A stretch of DNA of 64,000 bases from Chryseobacterium sp. StRB126 (GTDB lineage: Bacteria; Bacteroidota; Bacteroidia; Flavobacteriales; Weeksellaceae), in contig NZ_AP014624.1 in NCBI RefSeq assembly GCF_000829375.1, positions 3,596,001-3,660,000 on the forward strand, written 5' to 3'. Below, in pieces: positions 26,475-43,429 of the stretch (within the stretch, counting starts at the first letter, position 1; every line of letters begins with the position of its first letter). The notes under the pieces are model-generated. The model ran no database searches and had not been told where the DNA came from. It saw only the letters and a list, made by a program, of their open reading frames with translations. The translations under genes were made by a program, and so were the position numbers.

Positions 26475-27887
26475 TTATGGGATTAAATAAAATTTGGTAA
26501 TATCCAGTTCCTGAGTAGCCCTCATCAGTTCTATTCCGGCTCTTCTCTGGTTGAAAATGGCATTCTGATATTCCAGTTCCGAAGCTTCAAGATCGTTTTC
26601 TGCATCAATAAGCTGGGATGATTTGCTCATTCCGTATCTGAATTCTTTTTCAGCCTGTACCAATGCATTTTTAGCCAGTTCTTTTTCTTTAGCTTTTAAA
26701 GTGATCTGTGCGGTAGCAATATCATAATTGGTTTGGTTATTCGCCAGATTTAATGATAATTTTTTCAATGCATCTTCTTTCTGGTTCTGTAGTACTTCCT
26801 TCCCTACTTTAGCTGTTTCTTCAGCATGTTTCCCTTCTTTTCCATCAAAAATCTCCCACTTAAACCCAACTCCGGCTGTGATTAAAGGAAAAATATTAAC
26901 ATTATTAGGGCTCCAATCCAACTTTTTCCCTTCATATCCAAGAATCGGAATGGCAGGAACTATATTTTCAGAACTTTTGATGTGATTGCCATACAATCCG
27001 ATATAGTACGCGGAAGCCATCAGCTGAACTTTTGGAATCATCCATGTTCTTTCTGCCTTTATTTTATAATCTGCAGCAGCAATCCCATGTTCAAGAGCAC
27101 GTACTTCAGCTCTCTGCTCTATTCCTTTTTCTGCCGTAAGAAGTTCTACAGGAGACAATACCGGATCTATCATTCTCAAACGCTCCCTGCTGATTCCCGT
27201 TAAAATATAAAGTTGGGTAAGAAGTAATTCTTTTTTCCCTTCATATTCTATGACTTTCGCATTTAAAGTAGCCTGAGCCAGTTCAATTTTCTTATGGTCG
27301 TAAGGAGTAATCAGACCATAGCCTAATGCTTTATCTGCTGTTTTCTTGTTGATGTCCCGCCTTTTTTTGCTTTCATCCAATACCTTTTTAGACTGATGGA
27401 TCAGTGCCAGCTGGTCATAAGCTCTGGAAATACCCGCCACGACTTCATCCCTGGATTTTTCTAACAGAATATCTTCAGATTTCTTCTTTTCCTCAACGGC
27501 TTTTTTCAGATATTTCACCTTTCCTCCGGAATATACAAGCATCTTGGCTTCTGCTTTGGCTACTCCTGAAAATCCGGATACATTGAAATTATTGTTGAAA
27601 GCACCTTCAGCGATATTAATAAAAGGAGCCAGATTAATTTCGGGGGACGTAAGTCTTGCTGTTCCGTTAAGATAACCGGCCTTACCACTTAGTTCCAGAG
27701 TAGGAAGAAAGATATCTTTTAACTTGTGTTCATCAAGATCGGTAAATTTGTTTTGGGTAATCTGCATCTTCAGGTTCGAGTCCCGAACCATTGCACTATC
27801 CAGAAGTTCTTTAAAATCCGGCGCAGACTGTGCCCAAGCAGGAAAAGCAAAAAAACTAAACGTAAAAATCAATAAATTGTTTTTCAT
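26475..27887 (-). CDS. TolC-family outer-membrane efflux protein
   Basis: 470 residues with a signal peptide ending FPAWAQS. The two OEP repeats are visible: DFKELLDSAMVRDSNLKMQITQNKFTDLDEHKLKDIFLPTLELSGKAGY in the first, and AEVRALEHGIAAADYKIKAERTWMIPKVQLMASAYYIGLYG with the closing FRYGMSKSSQLIDAENDLEASELEYQNAIFNQRRAGIELMRATQELDI. It forms the trimeric outer-membrane exit duct. First gene of the TolC-HlyD-permease operon. A TAnnTTTG box lies just upstream. The likely cargo (drug or metabolite) is unknown; no TetR-type regulator is adjacent. Confidence 0.93.
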   Translation of the reverse strand: MKNNLLIFTFSFFAFPAWAQSAPDFKELLDSAMVRDSNLKMQITQNKFTDLDEHKLKDIFLPTLELSGKAGYLNGTARLTSPEINLAPFINIAEGAFNNNFNVSGFSGVAKAEAKMLVYSGGKVKYLKKAVEEKKKSEDILLEKSRDEVVAGISRAYDQLALIHQSKKVLDESKKRRDINKKTADKALGYGLITPYDHKKIELAQATLNAKVIEYEGKKELLLTQLYILTGISRERLRMIDPVLSPVELLTAEKGIEQRAEVRALEHGIAAADYKIKAERTWMIPKVQLMASAYYIGLYGNHIKSSENIVPAIPILGYEGKKLDWSPNNVNIFPLITAGVGFKWEIFDGKEGKHAEETAKVGKEVLQNQKEDALKKLSLNLANNQTNYDIATAQITLKAKEKELAKNALVQAEKEFRYGMSKSSQLIDAENDLEASELEYQNAIFNQRRAGIELMRATQELDITKFYLIP

Positions 27888-28145: not shown

Positions 28146-29622
28146 CAAAAGAAAGCATAGAGTAAATACTATGATTAATCTGAGTTCAGGTTAATGAAAT
28201 TCTGATTCTTTTAACGCTAAGATCGCAAAAGGGTTTAATCTATATTGAAAATAACTTCGTGCGCAAAGGCATTCCATTCAGCTAAGATATTTACTGCCTC
28301 ATTGCTGAGTGAAACGCCTTGGCGGTCTTAAAAAAAATGAAGATTGCAGAAAAAACTTTGCGACCATTGCGTTATGAAAGAGACTTCCTAGGTAAGAATC
28401 AAAAGATAATATGAGTAAATATTATTAACCTGAGTTTGGATTATGAAGCTCTGGTTCTTTTAACGCGGAGGTCACAAAAGTTTTTTAACAGAATAGAAAA
28501 TATTTTCGTGCGCAAAGGCATTTCATTCAGCTAAGATATTTACTGCCTCATTGCTGGGTGAAACGCCTTGGCGGTCTTGAAAAAATGAAGATTGCAGAAA
28601 AAACTTTGCGAGCATTGCGTTATGGAAAAGACTTCCTAGGTAAGAATCAAAAGATAATATGAGTAAATATTATTAACCTGAGTTTAGCTTATGAAGCTCT
28701 GGTTCTTTTAACGCGGAGGTCACAAAAGTTTTTTAACAGAATAGAAAATATTTTCGTGCGCAAAGGCATTTCATTCAGCTAAGATATTTACTGCCTCATT
28801 GCTGAGTGAAACGCCTTGGCGGTCTTAAAAAAAAATGAAGATTGCAGAAAAAACTTTGCGAGCATTGCGCTATGAAAGAGACTTCCTAGGTAAGAATCAA
28901 GAGATAATATGAGTAAATATTATTAACCTGAGTTTGGATTATGAAGCTCTGGTTCTTTTAACGCGGAGCTCACAAAAGTTTTTTAACAGAATAGAAAATA
29001 ACTTCGTGCGCAAAGGCATTTCATTCAGCTAAGATATTTACTGCCTCATTGCTGGGTGAAACGCCTTGGCGGTCTTAAAAAAATGAAGATTGCATAAAAA
29101 ACTTTGCGACCATTGCGTTATGAAAGAGACTTCCTAGGTAAGAATCAAGAGATAATATGAGTAAATATTATTAACCTGAGTTTGGATTATGAAGCTCTGG
29201 TTCTTTTAACGCGGAGGTCACAAAAGTTTTTTAACAGAATAGAAAATATTTTCGTGCGCAAAGGCATTTCATTCAGCTAAGATATTTACTGCCTCATTGC
29301 TGAGTGAAACGCCTTGGCGGTCTTAAAAAAAAATGAAGATTGCAGAAAAAACTTTGCGAGCATTGCGTTATGAAAGAGACTTCCTAGGTAAGAATCAAAA
29401 GATAATATGAGTAAATATTATTAACCTGAGTTTAGCTTATGAAGCTCTGGTTCTTTTAACGCGGAGGTCACAAAAGTTTTTTAACAGAATAGAAAATATT
29501 TTCGTGCGCAAAGGCATTTCATTCAGCTAAGATATTTACTGCCTCATTGCTGAGTGAAACGCCTTTGTGATCTTAAAAAAGGATGGAGATCTTCAAAAAA
29601 CCTTTCGATCTATTGCGTAGAA
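28146..29622. repeat. Tandem array 1: six ~249 bp units
   Basis: The anchor GCGCAAAGGCATT recurs at 28261, 28510, 28758, 29008, 29256 and 29506, spacings 249, 248, 250, 248 and 250. Units are about 90-95% alike; differences include the poly-A length after GGTCTT (6 to 9 A), GCTGAGTG versus GCTGGGTG, and TTTGGATT versus TTTAGCTT. Each unit starts with TTTTAACGC, holds an imperfect 21 bp-arm hairpin (CGCAAAGGC...GCTGAGTGAAACGCC) and ends with ACTTTGCGAGCATTGCG. The first and last units are more diverged. No ORF spans the array. 27888-28145 before it is A/T-rich with no gene. Confidence 0.93.
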
Positions 29623-29698: not shown

Positions 29699-30187
29699 TT
29701 ACTTCTGAACTGCTTTCTTCATCCCGTTATCAGGTCTTAACACTCTGTAACGAACTTCAATATCTTTTGGTACATAGAATACCAATGGCAGTTTACTGTT
29801 GTATCTTACGATTTCCGGTTTAAGGGTAACAAACTTTTTAGACAGTTTTTTATCAAGACAAGCCATTAATGTGCCTGCTGCTTCTCCTTTTGATTCTACT
29901 TCATAATAGTTGTATCCCCATCCCTGAAGATCCTGACTTTTCATTTCTCCCATTAAAGAGTAGTTGTTGCAGTCTAACATTTTTTCAGCCCCTACAAAAA
30001 CTTCCACTTTTAAGTCGTTTTCATTTTTTGCAACCGGAAGCTGAATATATACTTGTTTGTATCCTTCTTTAGCTTTTGGGAACATTTCAATCTGTAGTTT
30101 TTCAAACTTTTCAGCTTTCTTTTGAGCGAAAGCACTTACTCCAGCCATCAATACCAATCCAGTAATTAAAGTTTTTGAAAATTTCAT
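29699..30187 (-). CDS. eco: Ecotin-family periplasmic serine protease inhibitor
   Basis: 162 residues with a signal peptide ending SAFAQ. It aligns along its length with E. coli ecotin: KLQIEMFPKAKEGYKQVYIQLP, LKVEVFVGAEKMLDCNNYSL, LQGWGYNYYEVES, TLMACLDKK, KKFVTL and VRYNSKLPLVFYVPKDIEVRYRV. Cys73 and Cys110 have the same spacing as the Cys50-Cys87 disulfide. The reactive-site P1 residue, Met84 in E. coli (in TMMAC), is Leu107 here (TLMAC). Ecotin dimers inhibit trypsin-, chymotrypsin- and elastase-type proteases. The gene lies 43 bp downstream of the alpha-2-macroglobulin gene, so both probably share a transcript. A flanking hairpin (ACTCCCC...GGGAGTT-like) lies near 29650. Confidence 0.92.
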   Translation of the reverse strand: MKFSKTLITGLVLMAGVSAFAQKKAEKFEKLQIEMFPKAKEGYKQVYIQLPVAKNENDLKVEVFVGAEKMLDCNNYSLMGEMKSQDLQGWGYNYYEVESKGEAAGTLMACLDKKLSKKFVTLKPEIVRYNSKLPLVFYVPKDIEVRYRVLRPDNGMKKAVQK

Positions 30188-30230
30188 TTTATTTGGTTTT
30201 AAATTTTACGTATTTCTTAATAGCCAAAAA

Positions 30231-33200
30231 TCATTCCAAAATCTGAATTCCTGTTCCTTTTGTATGGGCATTCATCTGTGGAGCATAGTAATTCTGCATT
30301 GTAGTAATGCCGTTTGAGAACTTTCCGGACGCATTAGCAACGACATCATATTCAAACACATATTTACCTTTTGGCATATATTGAATATAGAAATTAGTGG
30401 ACGCATCTTTAGAAGATTGATAATATCCCAAATTATTTTTCCACTGGTATCCTGACAACGCATCAAGAGGTTCAAATCCTGCTGCACGCATATCTTTAAT
30501 ATGAATAAATTCCATTGCTCTGTCTGTGTTCAGGATCATTCTTACCGTTACTTTATCTCCTACTTTCAATGGTGTTTCCGGTGAAATTTTCTGAAGTTCT
30601 TCTCCGTTTACTGTCTTCACTTTTTTGTACAGTTCTTTGGTTACGGAAATATAATTTTCGGATGATTTAATTTTATCCAGATCTTCATAATACTGCCAGA
30701 ATAATCCTCCCTGAACAATTCCAGGCCCAGGTTTGGTAATTGTAACCGTTCCAAGGTTTTTATCTATAGCATCCGTTTTCACGGTTGATTTTACATATCC
30801 TGTTGCCTGAGTCTGAGGAACAATTTCTTTTCCACCCCAAACGATAGTTGCTTTATCACTTTCAGCACCTGTCCACGATTTTCCTGAATTTAAGATAGTA
30901 AAGATTACTTCAGCCGTTCCTCTTGAGCTTCCCCATGAGTTCACTTCTTTCTGGGTTACCAGCCAGATCTTCGCATCTTCTATAAAGTTTGTGTCATTTG
31001 CTTTTAATGTATTGAAAGCCTCTAATGCCCCAGCATGATTTACTACTTTAGAGCTGAACCAACCCCAATCGTTTAAGTTCTGCTTCCAATATACTCCTTG
31101 AGTTTTAGTATCTGTTGAAGTTTCTTTAAGGTAAGTCATCAATTTATCAGATACGTCTTTCACTCCATAATCATTCATCAATAAAGCTGCACGGTGAAGT
31201 CCGAAGAAGGTAAAGTCGGTAATTTTTGCTGTTTTTGCTTTTTGTTTTACCAACGTTTTCAAGGCAGCTCCTTTTCCTTTTAAAGGATATTGTTTTTCCC
31301 AGTAGTTTCTGGTATCCAAATAATCAAGAACCCAATTGCTCCAGACATTTTCTTTCTTAGTATCTGCATATTTGCTGATCTCGTTATCTACATACTGGAT
31401 CAATTTTGATACTAAAGCATTCTGCCCTGCACTCTGATATTCTTTTGCATTATCTTTTAGCCATAGATTAATCTTTCCAAGGTTTTTAAGAATGTATAAT
31501 GAAGTACTATAAGAGCTTGGATATCCTGCATACCATGAGAATCCACCATCAGGATTTTGAAGTTTGCTGAAATCATCCCAATTCTGATTAATTGAATTTC
31601 TCATCGTGTTCACATCAAACAGAAGAGCCAGTTTTTGCATCTGTTCAGCCTCATTTTTACTTTCCAGCACCCATGGAGTCTCATCCAATAGCAGCTGTTT
31701 AAGTTCCTGATTTTTTTCAAGATTTGAATTTAATAATCCTTTGCCCTGATACTCATCAAACACTGTTTTCATTTTAGGATTAGCTTTGAAGATTTCAGAA
31801 GCCAATACATCCGCAAACCATTTGTTGAAAATAACATCTGCTGAATTATTCTGGTCATTTTTCAGACTTGGAAGGGCAAACATAATTTCCCAGATCGGGT
31901 TGGTGGTTAATTCCAGTGTATTGGAAACATTTGATGCGGTTGTAGAAGTGTTATTTTTAAGGTTATCCAATACAAAAGTCTTTGTTTCACCTTCTTTCAC
32001 AAAAACAGGTGCTGCATCAGTCACCAACATTCTGTTTGGTAATACGGCCACTGCCTGTTGTTCTCCGTCAGAATAAGCTCCTGCTTTCGCTACTACTTTT
32101 AAAATGATAGAGGATACATTGTTTGGAACTTTTAGTTTCCAGGTTAATGCCCCGTTTCCGTTTTCATTTAAGTCAAAATTCTGTGTTCCTGAAGTGATTC
32201 CGAATTTTGAAGAAATGTTTTCATTGGTGAAGGCATCTAAAATCTGTAATTCTGCAGAACCATTCATTTTTTTATTGGTAAGGTTGGAAAGTTTTGACTG
32301 TAAATTCAATTCATCGCCTTCTCTTAAGAATCTCGGATAGTTTGGCGTTACTGAGAATTCTTTCTGGGTTACCACTTCTTTCTCCAAGGTAGCTGCTCTT
32401 GCATCTTTTGTATGAGCCAGGAACATCAATTTCCATTTTGTTAATGCTTCCGGAGAAGTGAATTCAAAGTTAACATTTCCTTCTGCATCGGTTTTCAGAT
32501 CCGGATAGAAGAATGCCGTTTCATTTAGGTTTTGACGTACAGGAACTTTTTCCAGTGATTCTTTGAATTCTGCCTGATCTGCTTCTGCTGCATCTGCAAC
32601 CTGAACACCTGCCACTTTACCAGCTATAGCCGATTCTTTTTGTCCATATCCTTTCATTACCACTTCTTCAGCCATTACTGAATTTCTAGCAATAGGAGCT
32701 GTCGGCATTGCACCTGGCGCACCTTTCCGACGTAATTTAGGAGATATTCCTCCATTTCCTCCCAGGCTATAAAACAAGCTACCATCAAACCAATTAAAGT
32801 TCGGAACTGCTACGTAATTTCCATTGAAATATTTCAATCGTTTCTGATAGCTTTTCTGCAACAGATATTCTCTCACATCATAAGAAGTAATAATGTTGAA
32901 TGGGGTGTATAATTTATCCCAGCCATAGGTATTCACAGCAAACTGGTCTAAAGACATGTCATACATATTGGCCAATACTTCCGCATTCACCTTTTCTTTA
33001 TCGTTTCCGGTAACTTTTACCGTCCATTTTTCTTTTGAATTTGGCTCTAACTTATCTCTGAAAGTAACCGTTTCAATTTTTAAAGGCTTCTCGGTATCCT
33101 TGATCTTCAGTGCAACTGTTTCTGTCTGTACATCATTAAATGCAACCAACTGGAACTGAAGATTCAGTTCAGAAACACTTCTATCTTTTGGAATATCAGC

Positions 33201-39893: not shown

Positions 39894-40781
39894 ATGAAAT
39901 CATTATTAAAAACAACAGTATTAACATTCATAACATTATTTAATATGTCACAAGCACAAAATTTCAAAACATTAGAAGCAGGAAAATTTACACTAGATGT
40001 TTATAACGCTTCAGAAAATAGTTTCGGTGTAGCTTCTGTTATTGTTTCCGGACAAATGGATGCCATTTTGGTAGATGCTCAGTTTACTTTAGCAGATGCG
40101 GAAAACGTAGCTCAAAAAATTAAAGATTCCGGGAAAAATTTAAAAGCTATCTATGTCTCCCATAATGATCCTGATTTTTATTTCGGACTGGAAGTTTTCA
40201 AAAAACATTTTCCGGGAGTTACCGCTTATGCAACGCCTAAAGTGGTAGAAGAAATTGCCAGAACAGCACAGAAGAAACTTGATGTTTGGGGTGGCCAATT
40301 AGGATCAGCAGTAACCAGCAATGTTGTATTGCCACAGGTATTAAAAGGAAATAGCATTGAATTGGAAGGTGAAAAGCTGGAAGTGATAGGTTTAGAGGAA
40401 TTCCCTGCAAGAACATTTGTATATATTCCTTCCGCAAAAGCAGTGGTAGGTGGTATCAATGTATTCGGAAACACCTTCAACCTTTGGATGGCTGATGCAC
40501 AAACAGATGAATCCCGCGCTCAATGGATTAAAGTATTGGATAAAATGGCATCCCTACACCCTTCCATTGTGATTCCTGCTCACGGAAAATCAACTGATGC
40601 TGCAGATCTAACCTCTGTGAAACATACTAAAGACTATATTCAGTTTTACGAAGAAGCTTTGAAAACCAATACAACATCGGAAGCTTTGGTAAAGGCTATT
40701 AAAGCTCAATATCCAAATCTGACTTTTGAGACAGCCCTTCAGCTTGGAGCGAAGGTGAATACCGGAGAAATGAAGTGGTAA
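39894..40781 (+). CDS. Secreted MBL-fold (metallo-beta-lactamase-like) protein with altered metal motif
   Basis: 295 residues from the ATG at 39894 (an ATG four codons earlier is also possible); signal peptide ends NMSQAQ. MBL features: NSFGVASVIVSGQMDAILVDAQFTLADAENVAQKI, the motif-2 region YVSHNDPDFYFGLEVFKKHFPG, and PAHGKSTDAADL. The usual HxHxDH is HNDPDF here, keeping the first His and the Asp but lacking the other two His. A single-metal or non-catalytic role is possible; related annotated proteins share this form. The gene is preceded by paired operators and followed after 10 bp by the NTF2-like gene. Confidence 0.82.
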   Translation: MKSLLKTTVLTFITLFNMSQAQNFKTLEAGKFTLDVYNASENSFGVASVIVSGQMDAILVDAQFTLADAENVAQKIKDSGKNLKAIYVSHNDPDFYFGLEVFKKHFPGVTAYATPKVVEEIARTAQKKLDVWGGQLGSAVTSNVVLPQVLKGNSIELEGEKLEVIGLEEFPARTFVYIPSAKAVVGGINVFGNTFNLWMADAQTDESRAQWIKVLDKMASLHPSIVIPAHGKSTDAADLTSVKHTKDYIQFYEEALKTNTTSEALVKAIKAQYPNLTFETALQLGAKVNTGEMKW

Positions 40782-40791
40782 TCTGAACCGT

Positions 40792-41253
40792 ATGAAATCA
40801 ATCTTTTACAGTCTGATGGCCGTTCTTCTGCTGTCAGGCTGTTCAATAAAAAACAACACAACAATGACCAATTTAGAAATTGTAAAAAGTACATACGAAG
40901 GAAAAACATCTGAGGAAAACGGAAAAGCATTAGCAAGCCACGTTGCAGAGGATGTTCAATGGACCGAAGCCAAAGGGTTTCCTTATGCAGGAACTTATGT
41001 TGGCCTGGAAGAAATTACCAAAAACGTTTTCAGCCGTTTGGGAAGTGAATGGGTTGATTATAAGTTCACCCCGGAAAATTATATTGCCGATGGAGATAAA
41101 GTAGTTGCTTTTGGAACGTATACCGGAACCTATAAAATAACTATGAAGCCATTCTCTGCCCGCGTTGCCCATATCTGGCACTTGAAAGACGGTAAAATTA
41201 TACAATTTGAACAATTCGTAGACAGCAAAACAGTAGTGGATGCTATGAAGTAA
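40792..41253 (+). CDS. NTF2-like (SnoaL/DUF4440-type) lipoprotein
   Basis: 153 residues with a lipobox (LLLSGC, Cys17). The mature part has the cone-shaped NTF2 fold: NLEIVKSTYEGKTSEENGKALASHVAEDVQWTEAKGFPYAGTYVGLEEITKNVFSRLG and KVVAFGTYTGTYKITMKPFSARVAHIWHLKDGKIIQFEQFVDSKTVVDAMK. Such proteins often are isomerases, dehydratases or binding proteins of unknown ligand. It follows the MBL gene by 10 bp and probably depends on the same promoter. The last ~66 bp of the gene is the first copy of the coding part of a 255 bp tandem repeat. Confidence 0.88.
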   Translation: MKSIFYSLMAVLLLSGCSIKNNTTMTNLEIVKSTYEGKTSEENGKALASHVAEDVQWTEAKGFPYAGTYVGLEEITKNVFSRLGSEWVDYKFTPENYIADGDKVVAFGTYTGTYKITMKPFSARVAHIWHLKDGKIIQFEQFVDSKTVVDAMK

Positions 41254-42450
41254 AATCTTAAGATTTTTAACGCTGAGATCGCAAGGTATTTTTAATTAAG
41301 CTTGAAAAAATCGTTCGCAAAGGCATTTCATTTAGCGAAGATATTCTCAGCTCCATTGCTGAGTGAAACGCCTTTGCGATCTTAAAAACATAAGAATCTA
41401 AAAAAAGCTTTGTGAACATTGCGTTATAACAATATGACTTAAGACGGTAAAATTGTGAAATTTGAACAATTCGTAGACGGCAAAACAGTAGTGGATGCGA
41501 TGAAATAGAATTAAAAGATTTTTAACGCTGAGATCGCAAGGTATTTTTAATTAAGCTTGAAAAAATCGTTCGCAAAGGCATTTCATTTAGCGAAGATATT
41601 CTCAGCTCCATTGCTGAGTGAAACGGCTTTGCGATCTTAAAAACATAAGAATCTAAAAAAAGCTTTGCAAACATTGCGTTATAACAATATGACTTAAGAC
41701 GGTAAAATTGTGAAATTTGAACAATTCGTAGACGGCAAAACAGTAGTGGATGCGATGAAATAGAATTAAAAGAATTTTAACGCCAGGATCGCAAGAGTTT
41801 TTTAATCAAAGTTGAAAAAATCGTTCGCAAAGGCATTTCATTTAGCAAAGATATTCTCAGCTCCATTGCTGAGTGAAACGCCTTTGCGATCTTAAAAACA
41901 TAAGAATCTAAAAAAAGCTTTGCGAACATTGCGTTATAACAATATGACTTAAGACGGTAAAATTGTGAAATTTGAACAATTCGTAGACAGTAAAACAGTA
42001 GTGGATGCTATGAAGTAAAATCTTAAGGTTTTTAACGCTGAGATCGCAAGGTATTTTTAATTAAGCTTGAAAAAATCGTTCGCAAAGGCATTTCATTTAG
42101 CGAAGATATTCTCAGCTCCATTGCTGAGTGAAACGCCTTTGCGATCTTAAAAACATAAGAATCTAAAAAAAGCTTTGCGAACATTGCGTTATAACAATAT
42201 GACTTAAGACGGTAAAATTGTGAAATTTGAACAATTCGTAGACAGTAAAACAGTAGTGGATGCTATGAAGTAAAATCTTAAGGTTTTTAACGCTGAGATC
42301 GCAAGGTATTTTTAATTAAGCTTGAAAAAATCGTTCGCAAAGGCATTTCATTTCGCAAAGGCATTCACTGTTCCATCGCTGAATGAAACGCCTTTGCGAT
42401 CTTAAAAACATAAGAATCTAAAAAAGCTTTGCGAACATTGCGTTATAATA
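41186..42450. repeat. Tandem array 2: five 255 bp units that include the 3' end of the NTF2-like gene
   Basis: GACGGTAAAATT recurs at 41188, 41443, 41698, 41953 and 42208, an exact 255 bp period. Each unit has the last ~66 bp of the NTF2-like coding sequence (DGKIxxFEQFVDxKTVVDAMK, stop) plus ~185 bp with the hairpin CGCAAAGGC...GCTGAGTGAAACGCC (41316-41378 in the first unit) and TTTGCGAACATTGCG. Later coding copies lie behind an in-frame TAA and cannot be translated from the gene. The fifth unit is shortened and diverged. The non-coding part belongs to the same repeat family as array 1. No other gene lies in 41254-42497. Confidence 0.95.
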
Positions 42451-42497
42451 ATATCCATCATTTAAACTTAGTTATATCAACTTCTGAAAACAAAAAA

Positions 42498-43124
42498 ATG
42501 AAAATTATATATATTATGGATCCCCTTTGCGGATGGTGCTATGGGAATTCTGACAACATGTTAAAACTATACAACCAATACAAAAACGATTTAGATTTTG
42601 AACTCCTTTCCGGTGGGATGTGGACTGGCTCCAATGTTCGAAAACAATCACCACAAATGGTTAATTTCTTTCTTAAGCATGATGGCACTGTAGCAGAACG
42701 TACAGGAATAACATTCGGTGAGGGCTATTTTGAGTTGCTGAAACAGGAAATTGTATTGGATAGTGAAATTCCATCCAGAGCAATGGTTTCAGTGAAAAAA
42801 ATTGCTCCTGAACAAGCTGTCCCTTTCATGGTTGCCGTTCAGAAAGCAAGATATTATTGGGGAAAAGACCTCAATCTGGATGCTACTTACCTTAAAATTT
42901 GTGAAAGTTTAGGCATTTATTCACAACAATTTTTAAAGGCTTTTCATTCTGAAGAAATGAAACAGGCTACTCTACACAATTTTAATGAAGCAGCACAATA
43001 TGCCCAGTCTTTTCCAACGATGTTGGTTGAAAAAGAAGGGAAATATACCATTATTGAGCAAGGTTATGCCTCTTTTTCTGAATTGGAAAACCGTATTGAG
43101 CTCCTAAAAAATAAAGTTGTTTGA
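42498..43124 (+). CDS. DsbA-family thioredoxin-fold protein with CGWC motif
   Basis: 208 residues from the ATG at 42498 (a longer TTG-initiated frame reaches into the repeat array and is not credible). IIYIMDPLCGWCYGNSDNMLKLY gives a CxxC redox site at Cys11-Cys14, followed by the DsbA helical insert (SRAMVSVKKIAPEQAVPFMVAVQKARYYWGKDLNLDATYLKICESLG) and the cis-Pro strand QSFPTMLVEKEGKY. No signal peptide, so it is probably cytosolic, resembling FrnE or SpxH-like proteins. A Cys-rich peptide gene lies 140 bp downstream on the same strand, but a terminator separates them. Confidence 0.88.
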   Translation: MKIIYIMDPLCGWCYGNSDNMLKLYNQYKNDLDFELLSGGMWTGSNVRKQSPQMVNFFLKHDGTVAERTGITFGEGYFELLKQEIVLDSEIPSRAMVSVKKIAPEQAVPFMVAVQKARYYWGKDLNLDATYLKICESLGIYSQQFLKAFHSEEMKQATLHNFNEAAQYAQSFPTMLVEKEGKYTIIEQGYASFSELENRIELLKNKVV

Positions 43125-43264: not shown

Positions 43265-43429
43265 ATGAAAAAAGTACTTACACAAAAGAAAGTATCAAGA
43301 GAAAATTTAAAAAAAATTCAAGGAGCGGGACAAATGGTATGTTGTGCTTTATCCTGTGCAGATCTTACAACATGCGCTTTTTGGGAGCAATTACCAGCAG
43401 AATGCCCAGATTTACCTTACTGTATATAA
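43265..43429 (+). CDS. Small Cys-rich peptide with bacteriocin-type (double-glycine-like) leader
   Basis: 54 residues. The leader MKKVLTQKKVSRENLKKIQG has the K-x-x-S-x-x-x-L-K-x-I-x-G pattern of bacteriocin-type signal sequences and ends GAG, close to the GG/GA cleavage site of peptidase-containing ABC exporters. The ~32-residue core has six Cys (26, 27, 31, 37, 47, 53), a Trp and several Pro. Its own terminator follows at 43447. No exporter, peptidase, immunity or maturation gene is adjacent. Such short peptides are widespread in Chryseobacterium as 'bacteriocin-like proteins'; activity is unproven. Confidence 0.8.
   Translation: MKKVLTQKKVSRENLKKIQGAGQMVCCALSCADLTTCAFWEQLPAECPDLPYCI

Follow-up and report, generated by a model that had tools for sequence, protein, structure and literature searches.

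Background

The tandem REPIN clusters of Pseudomonas fluorescens appear to be the closest precedent for the locus described here. In strain SBW25, 16 such clusters are reported, composed of f1-REPIN-f2 units that include flanking sequence, and a second mechanism of cluster formation is inferred in the same account (PMC3116915). The BIME-2 and REP arrays of enterobacteria are likewise described as extragenic palindromes in tandem composite units (PMC2817692), and REPs are given as 20-40 bp in length, with super-families that carry a GTAG or CGTC tag at one end (PMC3733652). MITEs share with the element reported here its short length, non-coding nature, dispersal, and inverted ends; unlike for MITEs, our searches revealed neither a parent transposon nor a clear target-site duplication. 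Variable-number tandem repeats that lie between genes and can overlap a gene end are also known from the MIRU-VNTR loci of mycobacteria, whose units are shorter than those reported here; we know of no MIRU-VNTR locus that combines a dispersed palindrome with local flanking sequence.

Here we analyze a tandem array (array A) in a 64,000-nucleotide stretch of the Chryseobacterium sp. StRB126 genome (hereafter the window, to which coordinates without prefix refer). As in the SBW25 clusters described in PMC3116915, an intergenic palindrome is repeated in tandem together with its flank. Unlike in those clusters, the element has another sequence, no RAYT lies beside it, copies number up to 8, the unit includes a coding gene end, and orthologous sites are compared between species. 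The enterobacterial BIME-2 and REP arrays differ from ours in element sequence and length, the latter being ~162 bp here. Judging from sequence comparison, array A is probably an instance of tandem amplification that recurs at a dispersed, intergenic, REPIN/BIME-like palindrome of ~162 bp. We found no publication that describes the element or arrays of it for Chryseobacterium or Flavobacterium, which does not prove that none exists.

Results and discussion

Anatomy of array A and its gene

Array A spans positions 41186..42454 of the forward strand, as delimited by unit alignment and Tandem Repeats Finder (period 255, 5.0 copies, 94% matches, score 2221). On its left stands a 153-aa SnoaL/NTF2-like gene (40792..41253, + strand; Pfam SnoaL_2, E 8.5e-17), and its right border is a DsbA-like (Thioredoxin_5) gene (42498..43124, + strand). 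Each of the five head-to-tail 255-bp units comprises the last 66 coding bases of the SnoaL-like gene, a few further bases, the palindromic element, and a short junction. The last 66 bp of the gene (21 codons and the stop), which form the first tail of the array at 41188-41253, are found again at +255, +510, +765, and +1020 (41443..41508, 41698..41763, 41953..42018, and 42208..42273, all + strand). The corresponding elements, also on the + strand, lie at 41265..41426 (profile match of 126.8 bits), 41520..41681 (120.8 bits), 41775..41936 (126.0 bits), 42030..42191 (129.5 bits), and 42285..42445 (121.0 bits), the fifth unit being one homopolymer A short and continuing into the true right flank. 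A previous sequence-only reading of the window had reported five copies of the gene tail, each with its stop codon and followed by a hairpin, at an exact 255-bp period; this holds, with the refinement that the five comprise the gene's own tail and four extra ones. It had also stated that the tails agree in pairs and depart from the gene by a few bases, and across 68 aligned columns tails 2 and 3 are indeed identical, as are tails 4 and 5, with 7 and 4 differences from tail 1, respectively.

When the SnoaL-like gene was used as a query against its own genome (G000), five matches were obtained, all at array A; the tails are therefore not chance resemblances, and by this search the coding tail is confined to the array. 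An in-frame TAA precedes each of the four extra tails, which therefore cannot be reached by read-through from upstream, and the second tail, for instance, with its own stop codon, would remain untranslated. In silico, all 268 of 268 crossovers placed inside the tail yielded an intact 153-codon gene, in line with the earlier proposal that unequal crossing over would always restore it. That an intact gene end recurs with each unit would also suit cassette integration at a gene 3' end serving as attachment site. Such integration, however, expects n+1 gene ends for n elements, and the counts of 5 and 5 here, and of 1 and 1 in single-copy relatives, rule it out, leaving it a practically negligible probability.

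The junction between units shows no clean microhomology join; by eye, it resembles a piece of the right flank in strain PMSZPI. A promoter scan returned 10 promoter-like sites where 5.7 +/- 2.4 were expected, the majority repeating with the unit, and a terminator scan returned 1 terminator-like site where 1.5 were expected; neither count enters the interpretation below. Within 40700-42700, Rfam gave nine matches with E up to 1; every one was to a microRNA family and fell short of its gathering score, and they were rejected as chance matches to a long hairpin. Downstream, at 43265-43429, a small ORF of ~54 codons has, by eye, a bacteriocin-like look: its start resembles a leader that closes with a GAG motif, and its end is rich in Cys.

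A dispersed palindromic element

The hairpin noted in the sequence-only reading is present in every unit, but it is better described as a dispersed element of the genus, with array A one of several arrays. Over both strands of the StRB126 genome, a covariance model found 85 matches (E up to 0.01), which merged into at least 46 intergenic positions at no fewer than 27 places, these being lower bounds as 150 of 6326 first-look candidates were scored. A profile built from one array A unit recovered the same palindrome elsewhere, usually matched on both strands at each place. Alignment of 23 copies revealed inverted ends (TTTTAACGC...CGCAAAG and CTTTGCG...TTGCGTTA) and inverted inner modules (TTCGCAAAGGC..TTTCA..CAGC and GCTGAGTGAAACGCCTTTGCGA); half-length relatives of ~80 bp are present too. 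Searching the same genome with a 22-base inner-module pattern at up to 3 mismatches gave 37 forward and 35 reverse matches, compared with 0 for the pattern read backward as a control. Folded as single-strand DNA, the unit 4 element with a few flanking bases reached -30.5 kcal/mol (z -3.95, 200 shuffles).

Beyond StRB126, a query of gene plus array had a match in each of the 23 further genomes of the genus that were searched and in none of 15 genomes from other genera of the order, the query containing the gene, which in single genomes (e.g. G012) gave the best match in place of the element. In 21 stretches around scattered places (20 plus L037), 20 of which contained element matches, all 24 matches fell between ORFs as called by a simple ORF caller, with 17 in co-directional, 5 in convergent, and 2 in divergent settings.

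Arrays form at the element

The 27 places in the StRB126 genome comprise 22 single elements, one place with two half-elements 129 bp apart, and four arrays (3, 8, 6, and 5 copies), which together hold 22 of the 46 element positions and whose spacer differs from array to array. Elsewhere, at L039, a pair of half-elements makes up a 245-bp duplication. Within the window, array B (28170..29618, no strand assigned) consists of six ~249-bp units in which the same element family is combined with a different spacer; its neighbours are an outer-membrane efflux (OEP) gene and an ecotin-like gene. By comparison, 400 kb of element-free background from the same genome (20 evenly spaced 20-kb stretches, 7% of the genome, 0 element-profile matches) contained 0 arrays of at least 3 copies and a single tandem-repeat row whose period was at least 60 (132 bp, 1.9 copies, located on the edge of a stretch). 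As this sample contains no elements, the comparison does not separate the hairpin from the element sequence as the cause.

Arrays in other species, selected because their hits clustered, have periods of 164 to ~325 bp and their own spacers. A sizeable coding end (judged against ORFs of at least 90 codons) was captured in array A and in no other of 14 arrays, which were chosen for clustered matches and not at random; L019 and the pair at L037, not being tandem, are excluded from the 14. This bears on the possibility that array A is a selected store of C-terminal cassettes, in which spare tails are kept for swapping the protein end. All tails are open and stop-terminated, and they encode three different C-termini (KIIQ/KIVK, S/G), which favours such a store. 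The changes are few, however, tail capture is limited to that one array, and at three positions the gene itself departs in its tail from all four spares, so that we consider a cassette store very unlikely.

Two further repeats were encountered. One is a different dispersed repeat with regular spacing, ~273 bp in G005 (L006 query part 1040-1193; G005:C1:677584-678792; G006:C19:360856-362105), which suggests that tandem arrays may extend beyond this element family. The other, GATTGCTTCGTCGCTCCGCTC..CGCAATGAC, occurs in the spacers of L041, and its apparent translation is found behind a Y1_Tnp-type gene split by a stop codon (L052, ~1408-2119); it is possibly a separate, transposase-linked repeat.

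Copy number at orthologous sites

Among 173 genomes of the genus, the SnoaL-like gene had a match in 21, and in 6 of these (StRB126 included) at 90% identity or higher. Where StRB126 carries five units at this site (site A), C. jejuense DSM 19299, CH25, PMSZPI, and CC143 each carry one element and c4a carries none. Comparison of the orthologous locus, which the sequence-only reading had proposed as a check, thus reveals a difference in copy number (5 here versus 1, 1, 1, 1, and 0). Its companion claim, that copy number can change without damage, stands as an in-silico expectation for the gene, with the changes themselves seen as counts between species.

At site B (28170-29618), the six copies of StRB126 correspond to three in G047, which have the same spacer and a 250-bp step, to one element each in C. 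jejuense, CH25, and PMSZPI, and to a partial element in CC143; none was found in c4a. Site C (G000:2433358-2435242; L034 5307-7251) holds eight copies with a ~242-bp period in StRB126, and in G047 (L267 2139-3271) six copies with a 194-bp period and a different 31-bp spacer. C. jejuense has one element there, c4a a partial one, PMSZPI a weak 45-bp remnant (11.9 bits), and CC143 and CH25 have 0. The differing periods and spacers indicate that site C was amplified twice independently. At site D (G000:1595927), three copies in StRB126 compare with one in c4a, a weak match (42 bits) in G047, and 0 in C. jejuense and CC143, with CH25 and PMSZPI uncounted as the downstream gene was not within 1.5 kb. 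The number of elements at a site is labile across species.

Such arrays might also be made directly, either by a Y1/RAYT-type transposase or when a DNA circle that bears the element integrates. The genome does contain four Y1_Tnp matches, and the inner spacer of array B, which is absent from single-copy relatives, is what circle integration would leave. Against this, the 3.2-3.3 kb around each of the four Y1_Tnp matches contained no element match even at E 10, and unit lengths and breakpoints vary between arrays. No clear target-site duplication was seen at the compared sites, where the intergenic DNA is diverged or replaced by other sequence and no clean empty site was available; at L005, for example, ~85 bp of other sequence replaces the element in three relatives without clear duplication. 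We therefore regard direct formation by a transposase or circle as improbable.

The flanks of site B also differ in their affinities. In the left flank (26475-27887), identity to CC143 is 94% and to C. jejuense 89%, and in the right flank (29699-31500) both are at ~95%; the closest relative thus differs by flank, as interspecies recombination would give. Trees of the left and right flanks disagree, with several nodes weakly supported.

Units of array A are mosaics

Between any two units of array A there are 6 to 34 base differences (2 to 13%), which approximates species-level divergence, and the variation is blockwise. Assembly artefact, which the sequence-only reading had named as a possible refutation, is very unlikely given that these differences lie in ordered blocks, that the genome is one 5.5-Mb contig, and that other sites and other assemblies contain comparable arrays. 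PMSZPI-like bases predominate in tails 2 and 3, in the left arm of unit 3 (within 41775..41936), and in the loops of units 1-4; C. jejuense-like bases predominate in tails 1, 4, and 5 and in the unit 5 loop. Columns 15, 17, and 18 of unit 1 have the bases of CC143. At 23 of 35 variable ungapped columns (7 of 13 within the first 80), both variants are present among the five orthologues, compared with a mean of 6.2 and a maximum of 17 in 5000 draws of a null that places transition-biased random changes at random columns and ignores rate differences between sites. Run tests on the C. jejuense/PMSZPI site strings of the individual units gave p values of 0.14, 0.06, 0.21, 0.05, and 1.0, none significant. 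Where relatives have AGCAAAGACATT, the loop of unit 5 (42285-42445) shows, by eye, a second copy of the adjacent module TTCGCAAAGGCATT, such as a local slip of the template would produce.

On this comparison, then, much of the variation among units does not consist of fresh mutations, and the units appear as mosaics of lineages. This modifies the earlier proposal of stepwise amplification and exchange, of which tandem amplification that captured the 3' end of a gene is retained. As the tail variants are shared with relatives and the tail is found at a single locus in the genome, donors within the genome cannot explain them. The source of the mosaic would be either an old array that collapsed elsewhere or exchange with relatives.

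The former, an array older than the species split that was collapsed in relatives to one hybrid element by crossover between outer copies, would have the shared variants inherited instead of exchanged, and differs from recurrent amplification in timing, not in machinery. Array B provides arguments for it: G047 has array B with the same spacer at the orthologous site, and the single element of relatives is matched by copy 1 in its left half and by copy 6 in its right half. The inner copies belong to a different haplotype and carry a spacer that those relatives lack. This pattern is what crossing-over of non-identical elements in their conserved core would leave, or the reverse process, and the disagreeing, weakly supported flank trees at site B do not polarize its direction. 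The spread of 2 to 13% among array A units, close to species divergence, would also suit an old array. At site A, however, collapse would have to have happened separately in each of the four single-copy relatives, and c4a is without an element. Sharing of array B with G047 favours age at B, and change-counting favours a recent gain at A; we consider an old origin of array A a real possibility, though the less probable course.

A signature of recombination within the element, scored with outermost segments with 40 bp of flank left uncounted, was clear in 3 of 10 arrays of at least 3 copies (both ends of array B and of L048, one end of L044). In L040, L041, and L043 an end copy was odd in a manner other than predicted, and the signature was weak in array A and L038 and absent from L034 and L045.

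Proposed mechanism and classification

Recurrent amplification at the element would account for array A as follows. A single element would have stood directly behind the SnoaL-like gene. Duplication with breakpoints ~66 bp inside the gene and just past the right end of the element, positions that can be read from the units themselves, would then have created the unit of tail and element, and homologous recombination between units, whether by crossing-over or conversion, would have raised the number to five and shuffled the blocks now visible as a mosaic. The palindrome would promote the first duplication through replication stalling or repeat-to-repeat homology; we infer such stimulation by the hairpin from the occurrence of arrays at elements and from the one orthologous site amplified twice with different units. 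The gene tail would be a bystander caught by chance, which keeps its stop codon, and recombination therefore leaves the gene whole. A selected function is not required, and presumably there is none. As array B is common to StRB126 and G047, arrays need not be young.

With REPINs the element has in common two inverted palindromic modules (23 aligned copies), extragenic location (24 of 24 matches), dispersal (46 positions), and tandem clusters with units that include flank. A RAYT link was absent around the four Y1_Tnp matches, and the GTAG or CGTC tag was absent from the consensus of the 23 copies, which starts with TTTTAACGC and ends with GCGTTA. With MITEs it shares terminal inverted repeats (AACGC...CGCAAAG and CTTTGCG...GCGTT). 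Given that no copy was found beside the four Y1_Tnp matches and that no target-site duplication is clear, we do not file the element as REPIN or MITE, although its behaviour is REPIN-like. The arrays are of the same kind as the SBW25 clusters, with a different element in a different phylum and, in addition, a captured gene end and one site that was amplified repeatedly.

Conclusions

Array A can be viewed as a form of genome instability that is readily understood and that has a known counterpart in Pseudomonas. More speculatively, and with considerable doubt, the same Chryseobacterium sites may act as accordion loci that repeatedly and independently grow with different units and collapse to one hybrid through recombination in the conserved core; such cycles, and not transposition alone, would mix and homogenize the family, and spare C-termini would be incidental. 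The captured gene end illustrates how an array may extend into a gene and still leave it intact, and element array loci could be used as strain-typing markers. One element family, followed at orthologous sites in seven genomes, ranges from 0 to 8 copies, with one site amplified twice with different units, and this makes the formation of REP/REPIN-type tandem clusters testable by comparison and with simple constructs.
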